Notes under the pieces: generated by a model | The model's database searches: none | Told to the model about the DNA's origin: nothing | The model's input: the letters and a program-made list of their open reading frames with translations, nothing else | Shown here: positions 13,857 through 37,341 of the stretch, piece by piece | How positions within the stretch are numbered: the stretch's first letter is position 1 | Layout: each line of letters begins with the position of its first letter | Translations under genes and position numbers: made by a program | NCBI GenBank assembly: GCA_030620115.1 | Contig: JAUXFG010000017.1 | Coordinates: 1 to 38,500, forward strand | Direction: 5' to 3' | Source: Candidatus Fermentibacterota bacterium | GTDB lineage: Bacteria > JAFGKV01 | Length of the DNA: 38,500 nt

Positions 13857-13949
<93 letters not shown>

Positions 13950-14570: not shown

Positions 14571-14882
14571 GTGCTTCAAGAAACGCTGGCGAAGATCCGA
14601 GAGGCCGAAGAGCAGGCAGCTGAAATGATCTCTCAGGTACGCAGGGAAGCGAGAGATATCCAGGAAGCCGCGGCCAAGGAAATCCGTGCCATGGATAAGG
14701 CGAGCCAAGATGAAACCGCCCAGGCCCGTGCCCGCCTCATCTCCGAGGCTGAAATGAGGGGAGAGGAGGAGGCGAGCAAGATCCGCTCGAAAACAGATCG
14801 TCATATCCAACAGCTCGTGGAGGCAGCCGAGAGTCATATGAATGCCGCGGTGGTGGAAATCAAGCAAGGGTTGCTAGGCTGA
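14571..14882 (+). CDS. atpH: A/V-type ATPase peripheral stalk subunit H (G-type)
   Basis: The 103-residue protein is almost entirely coiled coil, with charged heptads such as AKIREAEEQAAEMISQVRRE. It lies first in the operon, where archaeal-type ATPases keep subunit H, which pairs with subunit E to form the peripheral stalks. GTG 14571 is preceded by GGAGGG at about 14558-14563. Its stop overlaps the atpI start (TGATG). Sequence alone would only say 'coiled coil'; context makes the assignment. Confidence 0.85.
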   Translation: MLQETLAKIREAEEQAAEMISQVRREARDIQEAAAKEIRAMDKASQDETAQARARLISEAEMRGEEEASKIRSKTDRHIQQLVEAAESHMNAAVVEIKQGLLG

Positions 14883-16891
14883 TGGCCGTTGCCCCGATAA
14901 AACGCATACATATCGTATGCCACCGCTCAATGCATGAGACGATGCTTGTTCTGCTTCAAGACATCGGCGTGATACACATCTCGCCCTTGTCGGAAGACGA
15001 GACAAGTGATCTCCTAGAACCAGTCGGCAGCGACACACGCGATATCGAGAAAAAACTCGCGGAAGTTGAAGGCGCCGTCACCTATCTGGGGCGCTTCGTG
15101 CCCCCTGGGGGCCTGCTCAGTTCATTTCTTGGAGGAAAGATCGAGCTTACTCCGGCACAGTTCGGGGAACTCTCGGAGGAGCATCGCGTTGATCGGATTC
15201 TCGAAGAGGTGAAGGATCTCGAACAGGAAGTCGCGGAGCTTGATATCCGCACATCGCGATTGAACAGCGCGATTTATCATCTCCAGCCCTGGGCTCCTCT
15301 TCAGATCCCTCTGGAGGAGCTGGAGCCCACATCCCACACGGCGATATATGGCGGTTCGGTCCCCGTGGCAGCTCTTGATACGCTGCGTGAGAATCTTGCC
15401 CGCGGCGGTAACGGCTGGGTGATCGAGGAGACAAGCAGGTCCGGTGGTAGGGCCTATATCGTGTTGGTCGAACTGGCGGATGAAGCACTGGATGGGGAAC
15501 GGCTTCTCCGGGAGGCGGGATTCCAGCCCGCAGCGTTTCCATCGGAACAGGGTTCAGTGGAAGAGATTGTCGCGCGGATGGGGCAGGAGATGAGTGCGCT
15601 TTCCTCACAACGGGAAAAACTGCTGGCCAAGACGTCCGAGCTTGCAAAGCATCGGATCACGCTCATGGCGGCGTATGATTCTCTCGCACAGGCCAAAGCC
15701 CGTATCGAGGGTCTCTCGGAGGCATCTGGAACCAAGGACAGCGTGGTACTTTCCGGATGGTGTCTGTCCGAACAAATCCGGAAACTGGAGGAAGCACTCA
15801 GCTCCCTTTCTCCAGAGACCGCCGTGATCACGCGAGATCCGTTGCCTGAAGAAAAACCACCAGTAGCACTGAACAACAAGACAGCGGTGCGGCCGTTCCA
15901 AGTCGTCACCAACCTGTATGGCCTCCCCAAGTCAACGGAGATCGATCCAACACCCCTCTTGGCCCCCTTCTTCGTGCTTAGCTTCGGCATCGCGGTTGGT
16001 GAAGGTGGATACGGTGTGCTCCTGGCGGTCTTGTCAAAATTGGGTCTGAAGTTCCTCCGGCTCGAAGAGGGGGGAAGACGACTCCTCAACCTCCTCTTCT
16101 ATTGCGGAATCGCGACCTTTATCGCCGGCGTGCTCATGGGCAGCTTTTTTGCAATAGATTTCGCGTCGCTCCCCCAATTCCTCCAGCCGATTTCCTCTCT
16201 CTTCCAACATCTGCAGCTTTTCAATCCGCTGGAGGATTCGCTGCTTTTTCTCGGCATCGTGCTTGGCCTGGGCTTTTTTCAAGTATGGGTGGGCGTCCTC
16301 ATCGGAGGAATCATCAAATGGCGCTCAGGCGACAGAAAAACGGCCCTCTTCCATGACGGTGGATGGCTCGTGCTCCTGCCGCTCACCGCCTTTCTTGGCA
16401 AGACGATTGTTGGTGTGCCGGCACTCTACCCGTGGCTTGTTGCGGCGGCATCGATCTTCGTGTCGGCGGGGTTTGCATCAGCAGGCGTGGGGGGAAAGAT
16501 CGGTGCGGGCATCTATGCCCTCTACGGTCTGACCGGTTTTTTTGGAGACATACTCTCCTACTCCAGGCTCTTCGCTCTGGGATTGGCCACCGGGGTAATT
16601 GCAATGGTAGTCAACATCTTGGCCTCCATGACAAAGGGAATCCCTGTCATCGGATGGCTCATAATGCTCGTGGTCTTGATATTTGGCCACATCTTCAATC
16701 TCGCGATAAATGCTCTCGGGGCATTTATCCATACTGCTCGGCTTCAGTTTGTCGAGTTCTTCACGAAGTTCTTCGAAGGTGGAGGATCGCATTTCGAGCC
16801 TTTTTCCAGAAAATTCCGCTATACCACCATCACCACACACCACGCGGGCTCGTCCACCGGCTCGAAGAATCCCATGGTGGATGCAAAATGA
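14882..16891 (+). CDS. atpI: A/V-type ATPase membrane subunit I (a-subunit homologue)
   Basis: The product is 669 residues. The N-terminal half (1-350) is cytoplasmic, with long helices (coiled coil about 90-130 and 225-275) that hold the peripheral stalks. The C-terminal half has about seven or eight membrane segments from residue 355 (PLLAPFFVLSFGIAVGEGGYG) onward. R562 in ILSYSRLFALGLATGVIA is the conserved membrane Arg that faces the proteolipid ring and releases the bound ion. Length matches bacterial NtpI (about 650-670). ATG 14882 overlaps the atpH stop. Confidence 0.95.
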   Translation: MAVAPIKRIHIVCHRSMHETMLVLLQDIGVIHISPLSEDETSDLLEPVGSDTRDIEKKLAEVEGAVTYLGRFVPPGGLLSSFLGGKIELTPAQFGELSEEHRVDRILEEVKDLEQEVAELDIRTSRLNSAIYHLQPWAPLQIPLEELEPTSHTAIYGGSVPVAALDTLRENLARGGNGWVIEETSRSGGRAYIVLVELADEALDGERLLREAGFQPAAFPSEQGSVEEIVARMGQEMSALSSQREKLLAKTSELAKHRITLMAAYDSLAQAKARIEGLSEASGTKDSVVLSGWCLSEQIRKLEEALSSLSPETAVITRDPLPEEKPPVALNNKTAVRPFQVVTNLYGLPKSTEIDPTPLLAPFFVLSFGIAVGEGGYGVLLAVLSKLGLKFLRLEEGGRRLLNLLFYCGIATFIAGVLMGSFFAIDFASLPQFLQPISSLFQHLQLFNPLEDSLLFLGIVLGLGFFQVWVGVLIGGIIKWRSGDRKTALFHDGGWLVLLPLTAFLGKTIVGVPALYPWLVAAASIFVSAGFASAGVGGKIGAGIYALYGLTGFFGDILSYSRLFALGLATGVIAMVVNILASMTKGIPVIGWLIMLVVLIFGHIFNLAINALGAFIHTARLQFVEFFTKFFEGGGSHFEPFSRKFRYTTITTHHAGSSTGSKNPMVDAK

Positions 16892-16950
16892 GATTTGTTG
16901 CTCTTGGAAAAATGTCTGTCTCAAGAGCGGGAGATTCCATGGCCATTCTT

Positions 16951-17052
16951 TTGACATCAGCCATTTTGTGATTATTGGAGAGACAGTTGTATTCTGAAGC
17001 TTCGTGCGCGAGGAAACCACTCGCGTCAGCAATCGGACGAAAGGAGTAATCT
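16951..17052 (+). promoter_or_regulatory. Possible internal promoter and leader of atpK
   Basis: The 161-nt gap between atpI and atpK is the only sizeable gap in the ATPase operon. It contains a perfect TTGACA at 16951-16956, but no good TATAAT match at 16-18 nt (ATTGGA at 17). AAGGAG at 17041-17046 is a strong ribosome site 6 nt before the atpK ATG. An extra promoter would fit the high copy number of the proteolipid, but the evidence is weak. Confidence 0.25.
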
Positions 17053-17526
17053 ATGGACGGGTTGGCTCTATCGCTGTTGGGCGCCGCAGCTGCCGCATTT
17101 CTCGCGGGCATTGGCTCAAGCATTGGCGTGGGACTTGCGGGACAGGCGAGCACGGGAGTGATCGGTGAGGACCCTGAGAAATTTGGGAAAGTCATGCTTC
17201 TCACCGCACTGCCTGGTACTCAAGGCATCTATGGCTTTGTGATCGCATTCCTGATCCTCCTGAAGCTGCAGATCATTGGAGGCGAGATCCCGGCCGTGAC
17301 CACTGCTCAGGGTGGGCATCTGCTCTTCGCGAGCCTCCCGGTAGCTATTGCCGGCATGCTCAGTGCCATCCATCAGGGCAAGGTCTGCGCGGCAGGCGTC
17401 CAGATGACTGCCAAGCGGCCGGAAGAGTCGGGGAAGGCGCTCATTCTGGGTGTATTCGTCGAATTCTATGCGGTTCTTGGTTTCTTGGCCAGCTTCCTGA
17501 TCTCTAATGGAGTTCAGGTAGGTTAG
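17053..17526 (+). CDS. atpK: A/V-type ATPase proteolipid subunit K (c-ring), predicted Na+ type
   Basis: The 157-residue protein has four membrane helices arranged as two homologous hairpins, as in 16-kDa V-type proteolipids. Ligand positions known from the Na+-bound Enterococcus hirae NtpK ring (L61, T64, Q65, Q110, E139) are matched by L53, T56 and Q57 in LPGTQGIYG, Q108 in HQGKV and E137 in VFVEFYAVLGF, with the same internal spacings. Helix 2 has no carboxylate, so one ion site per four-helix subunit is expected. I therefore predict Na+ coupling (inference). It has a strong ribosome site and is the only ATPase gene preceded by a long gap. Confidence 0.95.
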   Translation: MDGLALSLLGAAAAAFLAGIGSSIGVGLAGQASTGVIGEDPEKFGKVMLLTALPGTQGIYGFVIAFLILLKLQIIGGEIPAVTTAQGGHLLFASLPVAIAGMLSAIHQGKVCAAGVQMTAKRPEESGKALILGVFVEFYAVLGFLASFLISNGVQVG

Positions 17527-17532
17527 GCGCTG

Positions 17533-18141
17533 ATGGCGCTTGAAGACATCACCTCACGAATACTGGAGAGAGCCCGTGAACAGGCCGACAAGACCCTCGC
17601 GAAGGCAAGAAAAGAGGCCGATGAGCTGAAGCGGGAGACCTCCACGCGGGTTGAACGTGCGAGCACATCGGCGTACGGCAAGGCAACGGAAGAAGCGAAG
17701 GCTGCAGCAGCCCGAATCGTTGCCTCGGCCGAGTCAGAAGCCAACAAGGCCATTCTCTCGGCCAAGCAGGATAGCATCACCGCAGCTATTGATCGTGCCG
17801 TCGAGGAGCTCCGGCAACGCGATGAAGCCGGCTATCTTGACCTTTTGGCGGGGCTTCTGGCCGAAATTCCTTTTGACACGGAAGCCGAGATGATCGTATC
17901 GCAGGCAGACCGGCGCTTTCTCGAAACCAATTTGGAATCATTACAGAAGCGTCTCTCGGGCTCGGGCAAGAAGCTCCGTTTATCATTGTCCGACGAAACA
18001 CGAGACATCGGTGGCGGGATTCTTCTCAAGATGGGGAAAATAGAATTCAATGCGTCGCTTCCCGCCGTGAGAAGGGCCAAAGAAGAGGAGCTGCGGGCCG
18101 TCGCCGCGCGGATTCTCTTCCCCGGAGCTGACGCCGCATGA
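17533..18141 (+). CDS. atpE: A/V-type ATPase peripheral stalk subunit E
   Basis: The 202-residue protein has an N-terminal coiled coil (1-100, rich in Ala, Glu, Lys) followed by a globular C-terminal domain with DIGGGILLKMGKIEFNASLP, the block shared by archaeal/bacterial subunit E. That domain binds the top of the A/B hexamer. ATG 17533 lies 6 nt after the atpK stop. The end overlaps atpC as ATGA. Confidence 0.92.
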   Translation: MALEDITSRILERAREQADKTLAKARKEADELKRETSTRVERASTSAYGKATEEAKAAAARIVASAESEANKAILSAKQDSITAAIDRAVEELRQRDEAGYLDLLAGLLAEIPFDTEAEMIVSQADRRFLETNLESLQKRLSGSGKKLRLSLSDETRDIGGGILLKMGKIEFNASLPAVRRAKEEELRAVAARILFPGADAA

Positions 18142-19175
18142 GAGCTGCCGCCCTGGACATGGTGTGGATCCCGCCTGATGATACCCGCTACACCTATGCC
18201 GTGGCGGTGGTTCGGGCTCTGGAGCATACACTGCTGCGAAGAAAGACGCTGGAGGCAATGGCCCGCGCCTTTTCACCAGAGGAGGCATTCCAGGAACTGG
18301 GGGAAACCTTCTACGCGAAGTTCATGTCCCCAGGGCTCTCCGCGGCGGGCTTCGAGACACTGCTGTCCGCCGTCTTGAAAGATACCTACGGCCTTTTCCG
18401 CCGTTTGGTTCTCGATGAATCATTGGAGCATGCGGTGCTCTCCGTGCACGACTTCCATAACCTCAAGGCCATACTCAAGAGCAAGTGGTCGGGCTTGGGC
18501 GAGCCAGTAGGGCTGGTGCCCTATGGCCTTTTCGATTCGCATCAGCTCGCCGCCGCGGTGGAATCTGGAGCATGGCGAGACCTTTCGCCAGCCCTGGAGC
18601 ATGCCGCCACCGCTGCCATGGAATCGTTCGAACTGGCCTCCAATCCCCGGCTCGTGGAAATGATCATCGACCGCTATTCCATGGACGCGAGGATCGCGCC
18701 GCTATTGGCTCTTGGTGCGCCCGAACAACAATGGTATGCCCGTGCTTTGGCTGACACCGCAAATATCAAGCTCCTCGTCCGATTGAATCATATGGATCCG
18801 GATTACACGTGCCTCGAGCACGCATTCATCGAACACGGGAGAATCCCATTCAACACATTGGCCGGCATTCTGGGAAAGAACACTGCCGCGGTGATCGACG
18901 CCCTGGCTTTGACCACCTATGCCAAGGCCCTGCGAGAAGGACTGCTCTATCTGGAGGACCAGGGTTCGTATGCAGCCCTGGATCGTGAGCTCGAGAACCT
19001 GCTCATGAACTCCCTCCGGGCCTCCAGGTTTACGATATTCGGTGCAGGACCTCTCCTGGCGCATGTCTTTGCCAGAGAGCATGAGGTACGGATGGTCCGT
19101 CTCATCATGGTGGCAAAAACAAATAACATTCCGACCGATCGACTCATCGCAAGGCTGTCGGTGCTCTATGTCTGA
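18138..19175 (+). CDS. atpC: A/V-type ATPase subunit C (d-type collar subunit)
   Basis: The 345-residue, mostly helical protein forms the socket that joins the central stalk to the proteolipid ring. Family-like features are the N-terminal YAVAVVRALEHTLL, the HDFHNLKAILKSKW block, IDRYSMDARIAPLL with a following D-x-x-N-I-K-L-L-V-R, and the C-terminal AREHEVRMVRLIMVAKTNNI. Its ATG overlaps the atpE stop by 4 nt and its end overlaps atpF by 8 nt. Confidence 0.92.
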   Translation: MRAAALDMVWIPPDDTRYTYAVAVVRALEHTLLRRKTLEAMARAFSPEEAFQELGETFYAKFMSPGLSAAGFETLLSAVLKDTYGLFRRLVLDESLEHAVLSVHDFHNLKAILKSKWSGLGEPVGLVPYGLFDSHQLAAAVESGAWRDLSPALEHAATAAMESFELASNPRLVEMIIDRYSMDARIAPLLALGAPEQQWYARALADTANIKLLVRLNHMDPDYTCLEHAFIEHGRIPFNTLAGILGKNTAAVIDALALTTYAKALREGLLYLEDQGSYAALDRELENLLMNSLRASRFTIFGAGPLLAHVFAREHEVRMVRLIMVAKTNNIPTDRLIARLSVLYV

Positions 19176-19527
19176 GAGAATTGCATTTCTTGGAAGCAAG
19201 GACACCGTGTCGGGGTTCATCCCGTTGGGAGTGGCCGCATATGCCGTTTCCGACTACGAATCAGCACTTGGTGCATTCAACGAATGCCTTGCAAGAAGGT
19301 ATGCCGTCCTCTTTGTAACAGAAGAGATCGCACAAGCCTTGGAGAAAGAACTGAAAGCCATACGCTTCAACCAAACGCCTGCGGTTCTGGTGGTGCCGTC
19401 CATGCTCGGATCGCAGGGACTCGGGCTCCGTAGACTGCGGAGCTTGGTGGAGAAAGCGGTGGGCGCGGATATTCTATCCAGAGATGAACCTACGGCCCAG
19501 AAGACAAATGCCAGGATGGGGGCATAA
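19168..19527 (+). CDS. atpF: A/V-type ATPase central stalk subunit F
   Basis: The 119-residue protein has the Rossmann-like fold pattern of subunit F: MSERIAFLGSKDTVSGFIPLG, then YAVLFVTEEIAQAL and QTPAVLVVPSMLGSQGLG. It sits on subunit D in the central rotor and regulates hydrolysis. The start ATG lies inside the last codons of atpC (8-nt overlap), so translation is coupled. Its stop directly abuts the atpA start. In E. hirae nomenclature this is NtpG. Confidence 0.9.
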   Translation: MSERIAFLGSKDTVSGFIPLGVAAYAVSDYESALGAFNECLARRYAVLFVTEEIAQALEKELKAIRFNQTPAVLVVPSMLGSQGLGLRRLRSLVEKAVGADILSRDEPTAQKTNARMGA

Positions 19528-21324
19528 ATGGAACAAGGAGTAATCGAGAAGGTTTCCGGCCCATTGGTTGTTGCCAAGGGTCTCATAAACGCAAGGATGT
19601 ACGATGTCGTACTGGTGAGCGAACATCGCCTCATCGGGGAAGTGATTGAACTGAGAGGTGATAGAGCCTCCATCCAAGTTTATGAAGAGACGGGAGGGCT
19701 CGGGCCGGGTGAGCCGGTGTTCAACACTGGTGCTCCGTTGTCGGTGGAGCTTGGCCCCGGACTGGTAGAGGCCATCTATGACGGCATTCAAAGGCCGCTT
19801 GATGTGATCTATGGAAAGGTGGGTGATCTCCTTACACGGGGTGTCTCCGCCCCAGCGCTCGATCGGAACAAGGTCTGGGAGTTCGTCCCCTCGGTTGAGG
19901 TGGGGACACAGGTTGTTCCCGGCGATATCCTGGGCAGCGTGAAAGAGACAAAACTCGTAATGCATCATATCATGGTCCCCCCTGGCATTGCCGGTGAACT
20001 CGTCTCAATGAAAGCGGGCAGCTACACCATCGAGCAGACCATCGGCGAGGTGAAGACTTCTGCGGGGGAAACCATTCCTCTGACCATGATGCAGCGGTGG
20101 CCCGTCAGAAGGAATAGACCCTATGACAAGAAGCTCCCGCCCCTGATGCCTCTGATCACTGGGCAACGAGTGATCGACGCGTTTTTCCCTATGGGCAAGG
20201 GGGGGACTGGGTGTGTCCCAGGCCCATTCGGCTCGGGGAAAACGGTGATTCAACACCAATTGGCCAAATGGGCTGACGCCGAGATCATCGTCTATGTAGG
20301 ATGTGGTGAGAGGGGAAACGAGATGACCGACGTGCTCATGGAGTTCCCCGAGCTACTGGATCCCAAGAGCGGTGAGCCTTTGATCAGGCGGACGGTGCTC
20401 ATCGCCAACACGTCGAATATGCCAGTGGCCGCTCGCGAGGCCTCGGTGTATACCGGTATCACCATAGCGGAGTATTTCAGAGATATGGGTTACTCCGTGG
20501 CCCTCCTCGCTGATTCGACTTCGCGATGGGCTGAGGCCATGCGCGAGATGTCGGGACGATTAGAGGAGATGCCGGGAGAAGAGGGGTATCCAGCATACCT
20601 GGGCACCAGGATTGCGGAATTCTACGAGCGCGCAGGTCGGGTTGCATGTTTAGGAGGAGATGACAGAGAAGGAACTCTCTCGGTCATTGGCGCCGTATCT
20701 CCTCCTGGTGGCGATCTCTCGGATCCTGTGGTGCAGGCAACACTCCGCGTGGTCAAAGTATTCTGGGGTCTCGAGGACAAGCTGGCCTACAAACGACACT
20801 TCCCGGCCATCAATTGGCTGACAAGCTATTCCCTGTACACCGATAGTATAGACCCCTATTTGCGCGATACAATCGGGGCGGACTGGATCAGCATGCGAGA
20901 AACCGCCATGGCCCTTCTGCAAAAGGAAGCGGAGCTGGAGGAAATCGCACGCCTGGTGGGTGTGGAGGCACTCTCCCCGGCGGACCGATTGATATTGGAG
21001 ACAGCCCGTTCCGTACGTGAAGACTTCCTCCACCAGAACGCCTTCCATGAAGAAGACACCTATACGTCGCTTGAGAAGCAGAAAGCACTGATCTCGCTCA
21101 TCATGCATCTTCATGAACGCATGGAAGAAGCATTGAAGAAGGGAGTCGCTCCTGCTGAGCTCTTCTGCCTGAAGGTCCGCGAATCTATCGCCAGGGCGAA
21201 ATTCACCCCCGAGGAAGATATGTCCAGGATTTTGGGCATCATTGATGAAATCGACGGGCAGGTTGACGGACTTATCGAAGCAGCCACCGGGGTCCTCGCC
21301 GCGGGAGCGGAGGTGACGACATGA
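19528..21324 (+). CDS. atpA: A/V-type ATPase catalytic subunit A
   Basis: The 598-residue catalytic subunit has the P-loop GPFGSGKT at 232-239 (catalytic Lys K238). The region before it (about 110-190) is the non-homologous insert that separates A subunits from F-type beta subunits. [44 protein letters not shown] and the C-terminal helical domain are all present. It hydrolyses or synthesises ATP at the A/B interface. It starts directly after the atpF stop (TAAATG) and overlaps atpB by 4 nt. Confidence 0.98.
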
Positions 21325-22709
21325 TCAAGGAATATCTGACCACTGCCGAGATTGTTGGTCCCCTCATGCTCGTCGAGCAAGTCGAAGGAGTTACGTACGA
21401 AGAATTGGTGGAAATCGAGCTCCCCAACGGAGAGACCAGGAGAGGCAAAGTTCTTGAAGTGAACAAAGATCAGGCCTTGGTCCAGCTCTTCGAGGGATCG
21501 TGGGGCGTGGATGTTCCCAATACCCGCGTACGGTTCTTGGGCAGAGGAATAGAGATCGGCGTTTCCAAGGATATTCTGGGAAGAGCATTCGACGGACAGG
21601 GGCGGCCCATCGATGGCGGGCCCGAACTCATACCGGATAAACGGTTGGATATCAATGGAAGCCCCATCAATCCCTATGCGCGGGACTACCCGTCTGAGTT
21701 CATCCAGACCGGCTTCTCTTGTATCGACGGCCTGAATACATTAGTGAGAGGCCAAAAGCTCCCGATCTTCTCGGGTTCGGGGCTTCCCCATCCCCAGATG
21801 GCCGCGCAGATCGCGAGACAGGCCCGAGTCCTTGGTTCAGCGGAAAGCTTCGCCGTGGTGTTCGCGGCCATGGGCATCACCTTCGAAGAGGCGGATTATT
21901 TCCTCAGCGACTTCAGACGAACCGGGGCCATTGAACGCGCCGTGCTGTTCTTGAATCTTGCCAATGATCCTGCTATCGAGCGCATATCCACGCCCAGGAT
22001 GGCATTGACTGCCGCGGAATACCTGGCCTATGACCTCGGCATGCATGTGCTTGTGATCCTTACCGACATGACCAACTACTGTGAGGCGCTACGGGAAATC
22101 TCCGCTGCACGGAAAGAAGTGCCTGGGCGACGCGGGTATCCTGGCTACCTGTATACTGACCTCGCAACCATCTACGAGCGCGCAGGAAAGATCAAAGGCA
22201 AGCAAGGATCGATTACCCAGATCCCTGTGCTCACCATGCCTGAGGACGACAAGACCCATCCAATCGCCGACCTTACGGGATACATCACCGAGGGGCAGGT
22301 CATCTTGTCCAGGCAGATGCACAAGAAGGGGATCTATCCGCCTGTTGACGTCATGCAATCGCTCTCACGGCTGAAGGACAAAGGAATCGGCGAGGGCAAA
22401 ACCCGGGAAGACCACTCAGACGGCTTCAACCAGCTCTTCGCCGCATATGCGCGAGGAAAGGAAGCCCAAGAGCTTGCCGTCATACTCGGAGAAGCGGCTC
22501 TCAGTGATCTCGACCGGAAATACTTTGCATTTGCTGATGTCTTCGAAGGCAGGTACATCCGGCAGGGCCAGGAGGATAATCGAACCATTGAGGAGACCCT
22601 GAATCTCGGGTGGGAGCTCTTAAGAATGCTGCCTGGGTCGGAGATGAAGCGTGTTCGAGAGCGGTTCCTGAAAAAATACTTCTTGGCTGAACAGGAAAAC
22701 ACCGAATAG
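21321..22709 (+). CDS. atpB: A/V-type ATPase regulatory subunit B
   Basis: The 462-residue subunit alternates with A in the hexamer head and supplies the arginine finger. Typical blocks are [38 protein letters not shown] (degenerate nucleotide loop), [40 protein letters not shown] and [23 protein letters not shown]. Its ATG overlaps the atpA stop (ATGA). Length matches NtpB (about 458). Confidence 0.98.
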
Positions 22710-22721
22710 GAGAACCCTCCT

Positions 22722-23351
22722 GTGAGACTTGACGTAAATGCTACCCGCATGGAGCTTCTCAGGCTTCGCAAGCGAGTAGCTCTGGCGCGGAGAGGTCATA
22801 AGCTCCTCAAGGATAAGCAAGACGAACTGATGCGGCGATTCCTGGAACTTCTTGGGCAGACCAAGGAGCTCAGGATGGAGGTTGAGAAAGCCTTGGCAGA
22901 GGCGTACTGGAGTTTCTCATACGCTTCGGCCACCGTGCCCCCGGAAGTCATGGACGTCGCATTCACCCTTTCTCCTGCCACACTCTCGGTGGAGACGAAG
23001 ACTGTGCAGGTGATGAACCTGCGCACACCGAGTTTCGAGGTGGCGCTCAGCGGCAACGTATTTGGTTACGGTTTCGCCTACACGACCGGGGCGCTGGACA
23101 TCGCGCTGGAACGGTACCAGACCATCCTTCCGAAGATGGTCGAGCTGGCGGAACGAGAGAAGGGCCTGGAGATGTTGTCGGAGGAGATCGAGAAGACTCG
23201 AAGGCGCGTGAATGCCCTGGAGTACGTGCTGATACCGAACCTCGAAGAGACAATCCGCTACATTACGCTCCGCCTCTCGGAGATGGAGCGCAGCGACCTG
23301 ACCCGGATCATGAAGGTCAAGGCGATGCTGGAGGAAGCACGTAGCGCTTAA
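22722..23351 (+). CDS. atpD: A/V-type ATPase central stalk subunit D
   Basis: The 209-residue protein consists of two long antiparallel helices (about 1-75 and 130-209), the rotor shaft of the enzyme. NATRMELLRLRKRVALARRG near the N-terminus and RRVNALEYVLIPNLEETIRY near the C-terminus are diagnostic for subunit D. GTG 22722 follows AGGAG with a short spacer, 12 nt after atpB. It is the last gene of the operon; a small hairpin (CGGACTT...AAGTCCG, 23354-23373) lies just past the stop. Confidence 0.96.
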   Translation: MRLDVNATRMELLRLRKRVALARRGHKLLKDKQDELMRRFLELLGQTKELRMEVEKALAEAYWSFSYASATVPPEVMDVAFTLSPATLSVETKTVQVMNLRTPSFEVALSGNVFGYGFAYTTGALDIALERYQTILPKMVELAEREKGLEMLSEEIEKTRRRVNALEYVLIPNLEETIRYITLRLSEMERSDLTRIMKVKAMLEEARSA

Positions 23352-32197: not shown

Positions 32198-32584
32198 CTA
32201 GTGCGCGGTGGGGAGATGATCGTCGAGAGCACTCCGCAGATCGGACTCAGACCGGACGCCTACCAATTGGTTGACCGGTTTTCCGCCACGAAAAATAGCG
32301 ATGGTCGGAATGCCCCGTACCCCCAGCCGCGATGCCCAACCTTGATGATCGTCAACATTGATCTTCGCCACCAATGCCTTGCCGTCATAGTCTCGGGCAA
32401 TACTCTCCAGCACCGGCGTAATCATATGACATGGTGCACACCACGGCGCCCAGAAATCTACCATCACGGGCATATCGGATGATTCAAGCAACTCGTCGAG
32501 CTCGTCATCGGATACATGGTGAATAAGTTCGCTCTGGACAGCGCCTTCGCCGGCATCTCTTGTGATCTTGTCAAAGAATCCCAT
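32198..32584 (-). CDS. trxA: Thioredoxin
   Basis: The 128-residue cytoplasmic protein has the redox centre WCAPC in VDFWAPWCAPCHMITPVLES, and the cis-Pro loop RGIPTIAIFRGG. It carries about 20 extra N-terminal residues (MGFFDKITRDAGEGAVQSEL) before the usual thioredoxin core; no signal peptide or TM is seen. ATG 32584 is preferred because GTGAGG lies about 9 nt upstream, whereas the GTG at 32597-32599 overlaps that site. The neighbours give no obvious partner such as trxB. Confidence 0.93.
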   Translation of the reverse strand: MGFFDKITRDAGEGAVQSELIHHVSDDELDELLESSDMPVMVDFWAPWCAPCHMITPVLESIARDYDGKALVAKINVDDHQGWASRLGVRGIPTIAIFRGGKPVNQLVGVRSESDLRSALDDHLPTAH

Positions 32585-32763
32585 CTTATGTAACCTCACT
32601 CAGTTGAATAGTCTATCATTGGTTCCTATGTTAAAGAGAAGTATAATATGGCTCGAACCCCGGCGCAAAACTGTGGTTCCCTGCTCCCTCACTGGAACGG
32701 CAGTGACTGGCCCCGGATTCAAGTCAGGAGACACATAAGGGTTCGCGCAAGAATAAGCTACAT

Positions 32764-33474: not shown

Positions 33475-33573
33475 GTCATCGCGAGCACTTCGACTTCGCT
33501 CAGCATAAACTCCGCGCGGCGATCTCAATGGACAAATGAGATTGCTTCGTCCCTACCCTCCTCGCTTGTCATC
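33475..33573. repeat. Dispersed palindromic repeat, copy C (inverted orientation)
   Basis: It reads GTCATCGCGAGCACTTCGAC at its left end and, reverse-complemented, follows copy A base for base over long stretches but lacks the 32-nt palindrome at 76-107. It lies between convergent gene ends (33459 plus, 33569 minus) and overlaps the last codon and stop of the membrane kinase gene. Confidence 0.75.
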
Positions 33574-34132
33574 CTGACATAAGCTTCATGACTGTTCCGG
33601 CAATGAGCGGAATCCGCAGATTGTCATCAAGGGGGATGGGCAGAAATTCAGCGATGGCCCCCGCCACTGCACCGTACGCGGCAAGGCTCGGAGGAACAAA
33701 GGCGATTCCAATGAGCCAGGAAACACCAACGTTGGCCACGAAACCCTCCATGCTCTTCCCGAATAATCGCACCGTTCCAAAGGTCTTCCCCACGATGGCC
33801 GCCGCGGCATCCCCAAGTATGAGGAAACTGAGTGCCGCGGCAGCAATGGGAGGTTCGAAAAGGTAGTAGGTGATCAGCGAGCCCACGAGGACAAATGTCG
33901 AACCAGTGAAACTGAAAGATTCGTGCTCTCGGATCACTGACCCAAAAAAACGCGCGAAAACATTGGCCGCGTGCTTGTTTTCCAGCCTGGCGAATTCTAT
34001 GAGGAGCATTGTGGTGCACGCGGACAAGAGGAGAATCATCACGAGCCGCCCGGGTAGGTAATAGACTCCCAAAGGAATGATCATTGCGGCCACATGAACC
34101 GATTTTCGTTCCAGCTCTTTGGCGAGGGACAA
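33569..34132 (-). CDS. Membrane dolichol/phytol/diacylglycerol kinase-like protein (CTP-dependent lipid kinase family)
   Basis: The 187-residue protein has about six membrane segments. The N-terminal ELERKSVHVAAMIIP and the cytoplasmic block LGDAAAAIVGKTFGTVRLFGKSMEGF are characteristic of the SEC59/VTE5/Dgk1 family, which phosphorylates polyprenols, phytol or diacylglycerol with CTP. The C-terminal AEFLPIPLDDNLRIPLIAG contains the conserved D-D-N. The substrate cannot be read from sequence; undecaprenol or diacylglycerol are reasonable guesses. The stop codon falls inside dispersed repeat copy C. It is a single gene with no obvious partner. Confidence 0.85.
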   Translation of the reverse strand: MSLAKELERKSVHVAAMIIPLGVYYLPGRLVMILLLSACTTMLLIEFARLENKHAANVFARFFGSVIREHESFSFTGSTFVLVGSLITYYLFEPPIAAAALSFLILGDAAAAIVGKTFGTVRLFGKSMEGFVANVGVSWLIGIAFVPPSLAAYGAVAGAIAEFLPIPLDDNLRIPLIAGTVMKLMSG

Positions 34133-34461
34133 ATTTCATCCCTTTCTTGTATTGCACGAACCATTATCGTATGAAACGCGGTGCTATCGAGAGATGCCGG
34201 GGTTGCTCTCCGACGCTTGCTGCATCAAACCAAGGCCAGGGGGCAGGGGCACGGGATCTCTCGGCCATGGAGGCTACGGAGAATTGTGGAATCCAAAGAC
34301 GATGTCTCTCGGGAATCCTCTCATCTCCGGGAATGAAATGCGAGGAGGACGGATGTTCGTAAGAAGCGATGCAATCCTTATCGGCCTATTGCTCCATCAT
34401 TACCTCACTCCACGAGCGGCGAAAGGCGAGCCCTGAGGAGGGCGCAGAATCGCTCCCCATC
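34133..34461. other. Gene-poor stretch with one 27-codon ORF (34353-34436, plus)
   Basis: No convincing gene is seen. A 27-codon frame at 34353-34436 begins MFVRSDAILIGLLLHHYL after a strong GAGGAGG site and looks like a truncated signal or membrane segment, stopping before the tRNA genes. It may be a gene remnant or a chance frame. Confidence 0.2.
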
Positions 34462-34536
34462 TGGTAGCGCCACGGGGAATCGAACCCCGGTTTGATGGCT
34501 GAGAACCACCCGTCCTAACCCCTAGACGATGGCGCC
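34462..34536 (-). tRNA. tRNA-Glu (anticodon CUC)
   Basis: On the minus strand the gene starts GGCGCCATCGTCTAGGGGTT. It has acceptor GGCGCCA/TGGCGCT (one G-U pair), D-arm GTCT...GGAC, anticodon stem GGTGG/CCATC with loop TTCTCAG (anticodon CTC), T-arm CGGGGTTCGATTCCCCG, discriminator A and encoded CCA. Length is 75 nt. It lies 13 nt after tRNA-Gln. Confidence 0.95.
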
Positions 34537-34549
34537 AATAAATTGACTC

Positions 34550-34623
34550 TGGCTGGGGAGCAGGGATTCGAACCCCGATACTACGGTCCAGAGCCGCATG
34601 TCCTGCCATTGGACGACTCCCCA
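34550..34623 (-). tRNA. tRNA-Gln (anticodon CUG)
   Basis: On the minus strand the gene starts TGGGGAGTCGTCCAATGGCA. It has acceptor TGGGGAG/CTCCCCA, anticodon stem TGCGG/CCGTA with loop CTCTGGA (anticodon CTG), T-loop TTCGAAT, discriminator G and encoded CCA. Length is 74 nt. Its 5' end is 2 nt from the gltX stop, so it is almost certainly in the gltX transcript. Confidence 0.96.
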
Positions 34624-34625
34624 CT

Positions 34626-36086
34626 TTACTGTGCTATTGCGGTGGCCCACTCGAGCCTTTCCAAAACTCGCTCTCTGCCAAGAGCAGCCGCAAGCTCGAA
34701 AAGCCCCGGGCCTTTCATCCGCCCCGTCATTGCGACCCTGGTGGGATGAATCAATTTCCCCGGGGAAAGCCCCATTTCCTCCGCCATCCCTCTCAGACTC
34801 TCTTCCGTAGCCTCCAGAGTAAACGCAGGGAGACTCTCCCACACGGATTTCAAGCGACGTAGTTTATCGGCGGCCCCCGGACGCGTCAAGTGCTTGCGCA
34901 CGGCCTTTTCCTCCATCACCGGCGCTTTGAGAAAAAAGTATTCCGTGAGCTCAGCGGCATCGGCCAGCGTCTTCGCACGCTCCTGAATCAGAGGCAACAC
35001 GCACCTTGCATACTCGACCTCTGCCGAATTCGCCAGGGAGATCAAATCAGCGCGCTCCAAGAAAGGAAGGCAGCATTCGGAGAATCGTTCTGGCGAGAGA
35101 GATCTTATATAATATCCATTCATCCAGGTCAGCTTCTCTGGATCGAAGATCGCATCTTTCTTGCTTGCCCTTTCGATCATGAACTCCTTTACCAATTCAT
35201 TCCGGGACAGGAGTTCCTCTCCGGAACCAGGAGACCAACCAAGGAGCGCAAGAAAATTCACCAATGCGTCGGAAAGGTAGCCCGCGTCTCTGTATTCCTC
35301 AACCAAGTGAAGCACACGTCTCCGGTCGCCTTCGGGCACGAGACTATGCCGTTTCGAAAGCTTCTGCTTGTCAGGGCCCAATATCATGGGCAGGTGGGCA
35401 TAGACCGGGGCATTTCCACCCAACGCAGCGTAGAGCTGAATATGCTTGGCCGTATTCTTGAGGTGGTCCACTCCCCGTATGACATGGGTAACTCCCATAG
35501 ATTCATCGTCGATTACCACAGCCAGATGATAGACCGGTGTTCCGTCACTCCTCAATAGGACGAAATCTCCCATCTCGCTGTTATCCACCGTGATCTCGCC
35601 AAACACCATGTCACGAAATGTGGTGACGCCGGGTGGAGTCAGAAGCCTCAAGACAAAGGGATCGCCTCGGCTCACCCTATGGCTGATCTCGGAAGGATCA
35701 AGCCCGGGGCATGCACCCGAGCATCCAAGCTGGCCGCCCTGCTCCTGGATTGCCTTGCGCGCCTTCTCGGATATATCGTGACGACAAAAACAGCGATAGG
35801 CCTTGCCGGTCTCAACGAGATCAAAGGCTTCTTTCTTATAGATCTCGAGTCGATCGGACTGTCGCAAGGGCGTCTCGTCCCATTGGATACCCAGCCACGT
35901 CAACACATCCATGATCTCATTCTCGAACTCGATTCGGGAACGTCCCGCATCAGTATCTTCGATCCTGAGCAGGAATTCTCCCCCCTCGTGGCGCGCAAAC
36001 AGGAAATTGAAAAGCGCGGTTCTGGCAAGGCCGACATGGAACTTGCCTGTGGGACTCGGTGCGAAGCGAACCCTGACTGCAGACAT
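34626..36086 (-). CDS. gltX: Glutamyl-tRNA synthetase
   Basis: The 486-residue class I synthetase has the HIGH-type motif HVGLARTALFNFLFARHE (residues 17-34) after VRVRFAPSPTGKF, LLRIEDTDAGRSR, GVTHVIRGVDHLKNT and the KMSKS-type loop KLSKRH. It has the C-terminal helical anticodon-binding domain of bacterial GluRS. ATG 36086 follows a GGGG stretch. The stop abuts tRNA-Gln(CUG) and then tRNA-Glu(CUC) on the same strand. In bacteria without GlnRS, GluRS charges both tRNAs with Glu and GatCAB amidates Glu-tRNA-Gln; this layout fits such a non-discriminating enzyme (inference). Confidence 0.97.
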   Translation of the reverse strand: MSAVRVRFAPSPTGKFHVGLARTALFNFLFARHEGGEFLLRIEDTDAGRSRIEFENEIMDVLTWLGIQWDETPLRQSDRLEIYKKEAFDLVETGKAYRCFCRHDISEKARKAIQEQGGQLGCSGACPGLDPSEISHRVSRGDPFVLRLLTPPGVTTFRDMVFGEITVDNSEMGDFVLLRSDGTPVYHLAVVIDDESMGVTHVIRGVDHLKNTAKHIQLYAALGGNAPVYAHLPMILGPDKQKLSKRHSLVPEGDRRRVLHLVEEYRDAGYLSDALVNFLALLGWSPGSGEELLSRNELVKEFMIERASKKDAIFDPEKLTWMNGYYIRSLSPERFSECCLPFLERADLISLANSAEVEYARCVLPLIQERAKTLADAAELTEYFFLKAPVMEEKAVRKHLTRPGAADKLRRLKSVWESLPAFTLEATEESLRGMAEEMGLSPGKLIHPTRVAMTGRMKGPGLFELAAALGRERVLERLEWATAIAQ

Positions 36087-36333
36087 GATTACCCCGCTCG
36101 GAGGAATCCTTTCAGATAGTGGTCTCTTAGCCGAGTCATGATATATGGCGGCATCATGGGGTCAAGTCAGCCTTGCTCTTGTCGACTCCCCCGCAGCTGC
36201 TCACTTAACCCACCTCATGCCCTTGCCTTTCACCTCAATCCCCACTACCTTGCGTCAGCCCCGAATAAGAGGGCACTTCCATGCCGATTCTGTACAATCT
36301 ATGGTGACTTCACCCTGCAAGGGAGGCGTGCGA

Positions 36334-37341
36334 ATGGACTGGAATAAGCTTGGTTTTCAGGTCGTTCCGACCAAGACAATGTACATTGCCAGAACCGATG
36401 ACGAGCTGAATTGGCAGCCGGGCGAATTCCGACCCTATGGGATGTTGGAGATACACCCCGCGTCAGGAGTCGTGAACTACGGTCAAAGTGGCTTCGAAGG
36501 CATGAAGGCGAATAGGGCCGTTGACAAGAAAATCGTGCTGTTCAGACCCCAGGACAACGCAAAGAGAATGCAGCAGCTTGCCGAACGATTCCTCATGCCT
36601 CCCTACCCCGTGGATGATTTTGTCAATGCGATCAAGAAGTTGGTTATCGAGAACAGGAAATTCATTCCGCCTGCCGACAAGGGGAGCCTCTACATCCGGC
36701 CTGTGCTCGCTGGATGGGGTCCGGTGCTCGGGGTGGCTCCGGCCAAGGAGTACATGTTCTACGCATTCACAAGCCCAGTCGGACCATACTTCAAGGGTGG
36801 CGTAAGGCCCATCAATCTTCTGATCACGGATTTTCACCGCGCCGCACCCCGAGGCACGGGGAACGTGAAGGGCGCCGGCAACTATGCCGCCAGCCTTTAC
36901 CCTTTGCGGATGGCCAAAGAAAATGGGTATGACGAAGTCCTCTACCTCGATGCTAGAGAGGATCGATTTGCGGAAGAAGTCGGTGCGGCGAATTTCTTCG
37001 CCATACTGAAGTCAGGGCTCGTGGTCACTCCGATATCCGAGTCAATACTCCCCGGAATCACGCGTCGATCCATCATCACGCTGGCCAAGGAGCATTTCGA
37101 ATGGGAAGTGGAGGAGCGTGACATTGATATCAACGAGGTACTCTCCGAGGCGGTGGAGTGCTTCAGCACCGGCACCGCGGCAGTGGTCACTCCCATCGGC
37201 AGCGTCACCTATCGTGGGACGCGCCACGAGTTCTCGGATGGGAAACCGGGAGAGAAGACAATGGCGTTGAGGGACAGGCTGGTTGGCATCCAAACAAAGC
37301 AATACGATGATCCCTATTCGTGGGTGGTGAATGTCACATAG
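36334..37341 (+). CDS. ilvE: Branched-chain amino acid aminotransferase
   Basis: The 335-residue fold-type IV PLP enzyme catalyses the last step of Val/Leu/Ile synthesis. The PLP lysine is in GTGNVKGAGNYAASLYP. Other family blocks are VNYGQSGFEGMKANR, LYIRPVLAGWG, EEVGAANFFAI, SILPGITRRSIITLA and CFSTGTAAVVTPIGSV. The sequence is of the BCAT2-like subgroup shared by bacteria and eukaryotes. ATG 36334 has GGGAGG (36321-36326) 7 nt upstream; the longer open frame to 36145 lacks homology-like sequence. It is divergent from gltX, with a 247-nt gap holding both promoters. Confidence 0.95.
   Translation: MDWNKLGFQVVPTKTMYIARTDDELNWQPGEFRPYGMLEIHPASGVVNYGQSGFEGMKANRAVDKKIVLFRPQDNAKRMQQLAERFLMPPYPVDDFVNAIKKLVIENRKFIPPADKGSLYIRPVLAGWGPVLGVAPAKEYMFYAFTSPVGPYFKGGVRPINLLITDFHRAAPRGTGNVKGAGNYAASLYPLRMAKENGYDEVLYLDAREDRFAEEVGAANFFAILKSGLVVTPISESILPGITRRSIITLAKEHFEWEVEERDIDINEVLSEAVECFSTGTAAVVTPIGSVTYRGTRHEFSDGKPGEKTMALRDRLVGIQTKQYDDPYSWVVNVT

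Follow-up and report, generated by a model that had tools for sequence, protein, structure and literature searches.

The locus described here raises two linked questions: whether a glutamyl-tRNA synthetase (GluRS) gene, gltX, that runs almost directly into a tRNA-Gln and a tRNA-Glu gene forms one unit with them, and by which route the bacterium carrying it makes Gln-tRNA. The reading that we favour, and consider reasonably probable, is that gltX heads a tRNA-Gln/tRNA-Glu unit, that a non-discriminating GluRS charges both tRNAs, and that GatDE amidates Glu-tRNA(Gln).

Gene order at the gltX locus

The window (the whole stretch of 38,500 nt that was analysed) belongs to a MAG, G000, of 4.1 Mb in 296 contigs, which is 98.26% complete with an estimated contamination of 1.56%. 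The sample of its phylum comprised three genomes: G000 and, from a second genus of its family, G001 and G048 (the sister genomes). The following features define the locus:

32198..32599, minus strand: thioredoxin; same order in G001 and G048, 55-56% identity
33569..34132, minus strand: conserved ORF 3' of tRNA-Glu, membrane-protein-like; same place in G001 and G048, 75% identity
34462..34536, minus strand: tRNA-Glu(CUC), CCA encoded (ARAGORN, Rfam); sequence identical in G001 and G048
34550..34623, minus strand: tRNA-Gln(CUG), CCA encoded, U1:A72, G73 (ARAGORN, Rfam); starts 2 nt past the gltX stop
34626..36086, minus strand: gltX, glutamyl-tRNA synthetase, 486 aa; sole PF00749 protein in the assembly
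36138..36165, minus strand: promoter-like site TTGACC-16-TATCAT, 5' of gltX; consensus match 10/12
36334..37341, plus strand: ilvE, divergent flank; same place in G001 and G048, 71-76% identity; fixes the locus

ARAGORN, Rfam, the ORF and the sequence itself confirmed the order given in an earlier note on this DNA, in which gltX, tRNA-Gln(CUG) and tRNA-Glu(CUC) succeed one another on the minus strand. Only the two nucleotides AG lie between the UAA stop codon of gltX and base 1 of tRNA-Gln, and a 13-nt spacer separates the two tRNA genes. The gltX product scores 483.6 bits against TIGR00464 (cut-off 290), and the Rfam scores are 56.0 bits for tRNA-Gln and 54.6 bits for tRNA-Glu. In the assembly, tRNA-Gln(CUG) is the sole tRNA-Gln gene detected, while one more tRNA-Glu gene was detected besides tRNA-Glu(CUC); tRNA-Gln(UUG) was not found, nor were a number of further tRNA species, the tRNA set of this MAG being incomplete. 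A family search with the ORF at 33569..34132 returned no match. Elsewhere in the window, mreB is directly preceded on its own strand by a tRNA-Ser(GCU) gene (13857-13949), another case of a tRNA adjoining a core gene, and a complete-looking V/A-type ATPase operon, here in a bacterial genome, occupies 14882-23351.

Both sister genomes are collinear with the window from thioredoxin through the conserved ORF, tRNA-Glu and tRNA-Gln to ilvE and a post-ilvE ORF (55-58% identity). Because the flanks on both sides match in this way, the gene order is no contig artefact. The order is not conserved among the relatives: G001 and G048 carry the tRNA pair between matching flanks but no gltX there, and no remnant of it was found between tRNA-Gln and ilvE. 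Their GluRS gene lies elsewhere, with glnS directly behind it. Either gltX was inserted in G000 or it was lost in the sister genomes. A compositional sign of recent import of gltX was sought and not found, its GC, GC3 and codon usage resembling those of its neighbours. Since Gln/Glu tRNA units are few against several thousand gene boundaries, an in-line gltX right before such a unit is, by a rough estimate, unlikely to be a product of chance. The gene order is real and goes beyond chance; on its own, it is a modest curiosity.

We compared the gene order of 30 gltX loci from GatE-positive bacteria. The same succession of gltX, tRNA-Gln(CUG) and tRNA-Glu(CUC) was seen in an unrelated bacterium, G036 (L142, G036:C75; tRNAs at 1250-1410, gltX at 1462-2877), whose GltX is 40% identical to that of the window; there is no flank synteny, and CCA is not encoded. 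A divergent tRNA-Gln gene stands beside gltX in G007 and G004, and a tRNA-Gln gene lies within 1 kb of it in G041. Adjacency of gltX and tRNA genes recurs but is not conserved. Because G036 has GlnRS and GatB as well as GatDE, the absence of GlnRS is not coupled to this gene order. In six further loci (L126, L135, L138, L141, L143 and L145), from GatE-positive and mostly acidobacteriotal genomes, tRNA-Ser(UGA) and/or tRNA-Ser(GCU) directly adjoins gltX.

Proposed transcription and processing of the unit

The promoter-like site at 36165-36138 lies about 50 nt before the gltX start, and TTGACC opens a top-scoring promoter-like site of the intergenic region in each of G000, G001 and G048. Given this site upstream in all three genomes and a collinear locus that lacks gltX in two of them, gltX therefore lies between the probable promoter of the tRNA unit and the tRNAs. 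All three genes share one strand, and the 2-nt gap, in which there is no terminator-like site, is too small for a promoter or a terminator between gltX and tRNA-Gln. The proposal of one unit is thus supported as far as the sequence can tell. The earlier note had named a separate promoter and terminator between gltX and the tRNAs as evidence against it: the gap is too small for either, while a weaker promoter-like match inside gltX (34889-34861, 9/12) leaves room for a separate start of the tRNAs. Among the Rfam matches in the window, which are three tRNAs, there is no T-box or riboswitch. A terminator hairpin 3' of tRNA-Glu is clear in the sister genomes (z -3.3 and -4.5) and is not evident in the window (z -0.04). 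The strong hairpin GGGGAAGGCG...CGCCUUCCCC that follows tRNA-Glu in both sister genomes has no conserved counterpart at 34400-34461 of the window.

A single transcript starting near 36138 would span gltX, tRNA-Gln and tRNA-Glu, and GluRS would be translated from it. RNase P cleavage 2 nt past the gltX stop would free tRNA-Gln, and tRNA-Glu would be released after further processing. From the geometry, tRNA-Gln would have its first bases under any ribosome that terminates at the gltX stop; translation of gltX and folding or cleavage of tRNA-Gln could therefore hinder each other, and the cleaved gltX message would end 2 nt after its own stop codon. Co-regulated charging and a cut of the mRNA at the gltX stop codon, both suggested earlier, are plausible.

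Route to Gln-tRNA in the assembly

GlnRS was not detected in the assembly, where the product of the window's gltX is the single PF00749 protein; this is a fragmented MAG at 98.26% completeness, and glnS may be unassembled. GatB gave no match over the cut-off. The only hit of its model (88 bits against 314.8) fell on the N-terminal part of a 658-aa protein of contig C235, and this protein is GatE (NF003107, 480.7 bits with a cut-off of 456; TIGR00134, 411.6 bits with a cut-off of 319.55). GatCAB was rejected as a candidate, the sub-cut-off GatB match being GatE itself. Directly downstream of gatE lies the gene of GatD (TIGR02153, 483.7 bits, cut-off 324). Both proteins align nearly full length with the archaeal GatDE structures 1ZQ1 and 2D6F. 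The His/Glu/Glu residues of GatE are conserved in 77 of the 77 aligned sequences, and the Thr/Thr/Asp/Lys residues of GatD are present in all aligned rows without a gap; we take these to be the catalytic residues assigned in work on M. thermautotrophicus. AsnRS is present (552 bits), and GatCAB is therefore not needed for Asn.

With no GlnRS, no GatB, an intact gatE-gatD tandem and AsnRS, the route deduced is a non-discriminating GluRS combined with GatDE. The sole GluRS would glutamylate both tRNA-Gln and tRNA-Glu, GatD and GatE from the other contig would convert Glu-tRNA(Gln) to Gln-tRNA(Gln), and AsnRS would serve Asn, leaving GatCAB dispensable. The interpretation in the earlier note was thus half right: the unit and a non-discriminating GluRS are supported, and the GatCAB route is not. 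The search for glnS and gatABC that it had proposed detected neither glnS nor GatB, the GatB model alone standing for GatCAB, and brought up GatDE instead. Of more weight than the gene order is what the gene content suggests: this bacterium apparently relies on GatDE only, while GlnRS is still present in its sister genus.

The GatE of G000 has a short branch and intact sites and belongs to another clade than the GatE of G001. The sister GatE branch (L150, G001:C217; L193, G048:C201) is very long (1.83), with the catalytic residues kept; perhaps the function has relaxed or changed where GlnRS is also present. In G000 and G001 (L004:9957-14105 and L150), gatE-gatD adjoins a glutamine synthetase gene, which is convergent in the former and upstream on the same strand in the latter. 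A general link between gatED and glutamine synthetase was not found, a match to the latter being near 4 of 82 loci (G000, G001, one archaeal and one weak). The proximity in so few loci marks it as a feature of the window's family.

The tRNA-Gln of the window is of the bacterial type (U1:A72, G73, C12:G23). Archaeal GatDE substrates have A1:U72 and A73, and the enzyme is reported to recognise A1:U72 together with the D-loop (PMC9499178). The window tRNA-Gln has neither A1:U72 nor A73, and a bacterial GatDE raises the question of how the enzyme reads a bacterial tRNA-Gln.

Type and specificity of the GluRS

The window GltX carries an HVGL motif, whereas the GluRS of the sister genus carries HVGT; the two are about 40% identical. 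T. thermophilus 1J09 and 5TGT share a clade with the sister GluRS (SH-aLRT 100), whose highest-scoring PDB entry is 5TGT (535 bits); T. thermophilus comes third. The window GltX is excluded from this T. thermophilus-type clade (SH-aLRT 99) and stands on a long, poorly placed branch. Among PDB entries it matches T. maritima GluRS1 best, an enzyme reported to be non-discriminating (PMC3927822). This difference in type agrees with a change of specificity and is no proof of it. A non-discriminating GluRS would be the simplest reading with a single PF00749 match and no GlnRS detected.

The position of T. thermophilus Arg358 is occupied by Arg in the window GluRS, in T. maritima GluRS1, in T. thermophilus and in most other rows. 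Arg at this position is found in discriminating GluRS enzymes. The residue is not general as a specificity marker (PMC3927822), and we dropped it as a mark of non-discrimination, T. maritima GluRS1 carrying Arg too.

GatDE across bacteria

To our knowledge, textbooks assign GatDE to archaea only. According to a 2022 review, GatDE occurs today in archaea only, a restriction that has been used in arguments on LUCA and on why archaea are without GlnRS (PMC9499178). A 2014 survey of bacterial GlxRS distinguished five classes, none of them without both GlnRS and GatCAB (PMC3927822). No report of bacterial GatDE was found in the open-licence literature.

In our scan of species genomes, many bacterial MAGs gave a GatE match, as did two chromosome-level records of Ignavibacteria (CP054675, which is complete, and CP053447). 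GatE scored over the cut-off in 15 of 119 Acidobacteriota in an even sample, in one case on a contig no shorter than 3.87 Mb, and the three genomes of the phylum to which the window belongs all carry it (G000 and G001 by model, G048 by alignment). Among 48 GatE-positive bacterial genomes, GlnRS exceeded the cut-off in 40, including the complete Ignavibacteria chromosome G039, and GatB in 19, leaving 29 without it. Both were missing in G000, G032, G041, G043 and G047 and, less clearly, in G017, where gltX lies at the end of a contig, and in G035, which has a GatB fragment; this makes a total of five to seven. The presence of GatDE in bacteria is real. We tested contamination as its origin and largely rejected this explanation. 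Two GluRS genes accompany GatE in G041 (L122, L148) and G047 (L123, L158), without GlnRS and without GatB over the cut-off; by its genes, this is the GluRS1/GluRS2 pattern with GatDE apparently replacing GatCAB.

Bacterial genomes with GatDE, some of them apparently without another Gln-tRNA route, challenge the archaea-only statement. We see about an even chance that the lineage of G000 switched between a discriminating GluRS with GlnRS and a GatDE-only state, and that gltX in the tRNA unit links enzyme synthesis to substrate processing. If true, this would represent a bacterial class new to both publications (PMC3927822, PMC9499178), with GluRS and GatDE and with neither GlnRS nor GatCAB.

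Alternative explanations

The main weakness of the reading that we favour is that a fragmented MAG is the ground for calling glnS absent. The organism may possess an unassembled glnS, in which case GluRS would be discriminating, Gln-tRNA would be made directly and GatDE would serve as a backup or in another role. Several observations fit this: the assembly is in 296 contigs and lacks several tRNAs, both sister genomes carry glnS right behind gltX, and in the 40 GatE-positive bacteria with GlnRS, G039 among them, GatDE must have just such a role. The Arg at the Arg358 position, the U1:A72 and G73 of tRNA-Gln and the missing tRNAs would likewise count against the reading that we favour. On the other side stand the completeness of 98.26% and the position and type of gltX, both different from those of the sister tandem, as fits a loss of the tandem as a block. 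G032, G041, G043 and G047 are also GatE-positive without GlnRS and GatB, and the G000 GatE has a short branch and intact sites, against the long branch in G001. We regard an overlooked glnS as rather unlikely. The adjacency could also be a by-product of the place in which gltX landed or stayed; transcription of the tRNAs would then start from a promoter within gltX, and charging, processing and translation would be uncoupled. The match inside gltX, a sister genus without the order and the lack of a tie to GlnRS absence (G036 has the order together with GlnRS and GatB) agree with this; but the internal match (9/12) is weaker than the upstream site (10/12), which the sister genomes share, and with a 2-nt gap read-through from gltX into tRNA-Gln is unavoidable. 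Such a by-product is unlikely in our view.

It is very improbable that binning misled us and that either the contig of the window or C235, which bears gatED, came from another organism in the sample. The low identities of the G000 gatE (47%) and gltX (40%) to their G001 counterparts, together with the contamination estimate, would suit such an origin. Yet both sides of gltX are collinear with G001 and G048, and the other window proteins are about as close to these genomes (with a composite query, MreB 86-87%, PBP2 62-63% and IlvE 72-74% identity) as the control, AsnRS from another G000 contig (75% to G001). Identities of 62-87% indicate that the window contig is correctly binned, and its tetranucleotide composition agrees with that of other G000 contigs (r 0.82). 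For C235 the support is weaker: the glutamine synthetase adjoining gatED is 66% identical to the one adjoining gatE in G001 and G048.

Comparison with known pathways

The predicted pathway resembles the archaeal one of a non-discriminating GluRS and GatDE (1ZQ1, 2D6F) in the catalytic residues of GatD and GatE, their tandem, the lack of GlnRS and a probable tRNA-dependent amidation; it differs in its bacterial host, a bacterial-type GluRS and a tRNA-Gln with U1:A72/G73 instead of A1:U72/A73. With the bacterial pathway of a non-discriminating GluRS and GatCAB (class 1|-|+, PMC3927822) it shares one GluRS and no GlnRS, whereas here no GatB exceeds the cut-off and GatDE stands in its place. As regards gene order, Escherichia coli gltX, which presumably adjoins the valUXY-lysV and alaW tRNA genes, is also a GluRS gene beside tRNA genes; unlike those neighbours, which are no GluRS substrates, the tRNAs of the window would be, and they follow in line 2 nt past the stop. 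The direct GlnRS pathway, represented by the sister genomes G001 and G048, belongs to the same family, with the same tRNA pair and locus and with GatDE, but it has an HVGT-type GluRS in tandem with glnS elsewhere, a locus without gltX and a GatE of another clade. With GlnRS in one sister genus and apparently none in the other, the two offer a natural comparison of a change between direct and indirect Gln-tRNA synthesis that extends to the locus of the GluRS gene.
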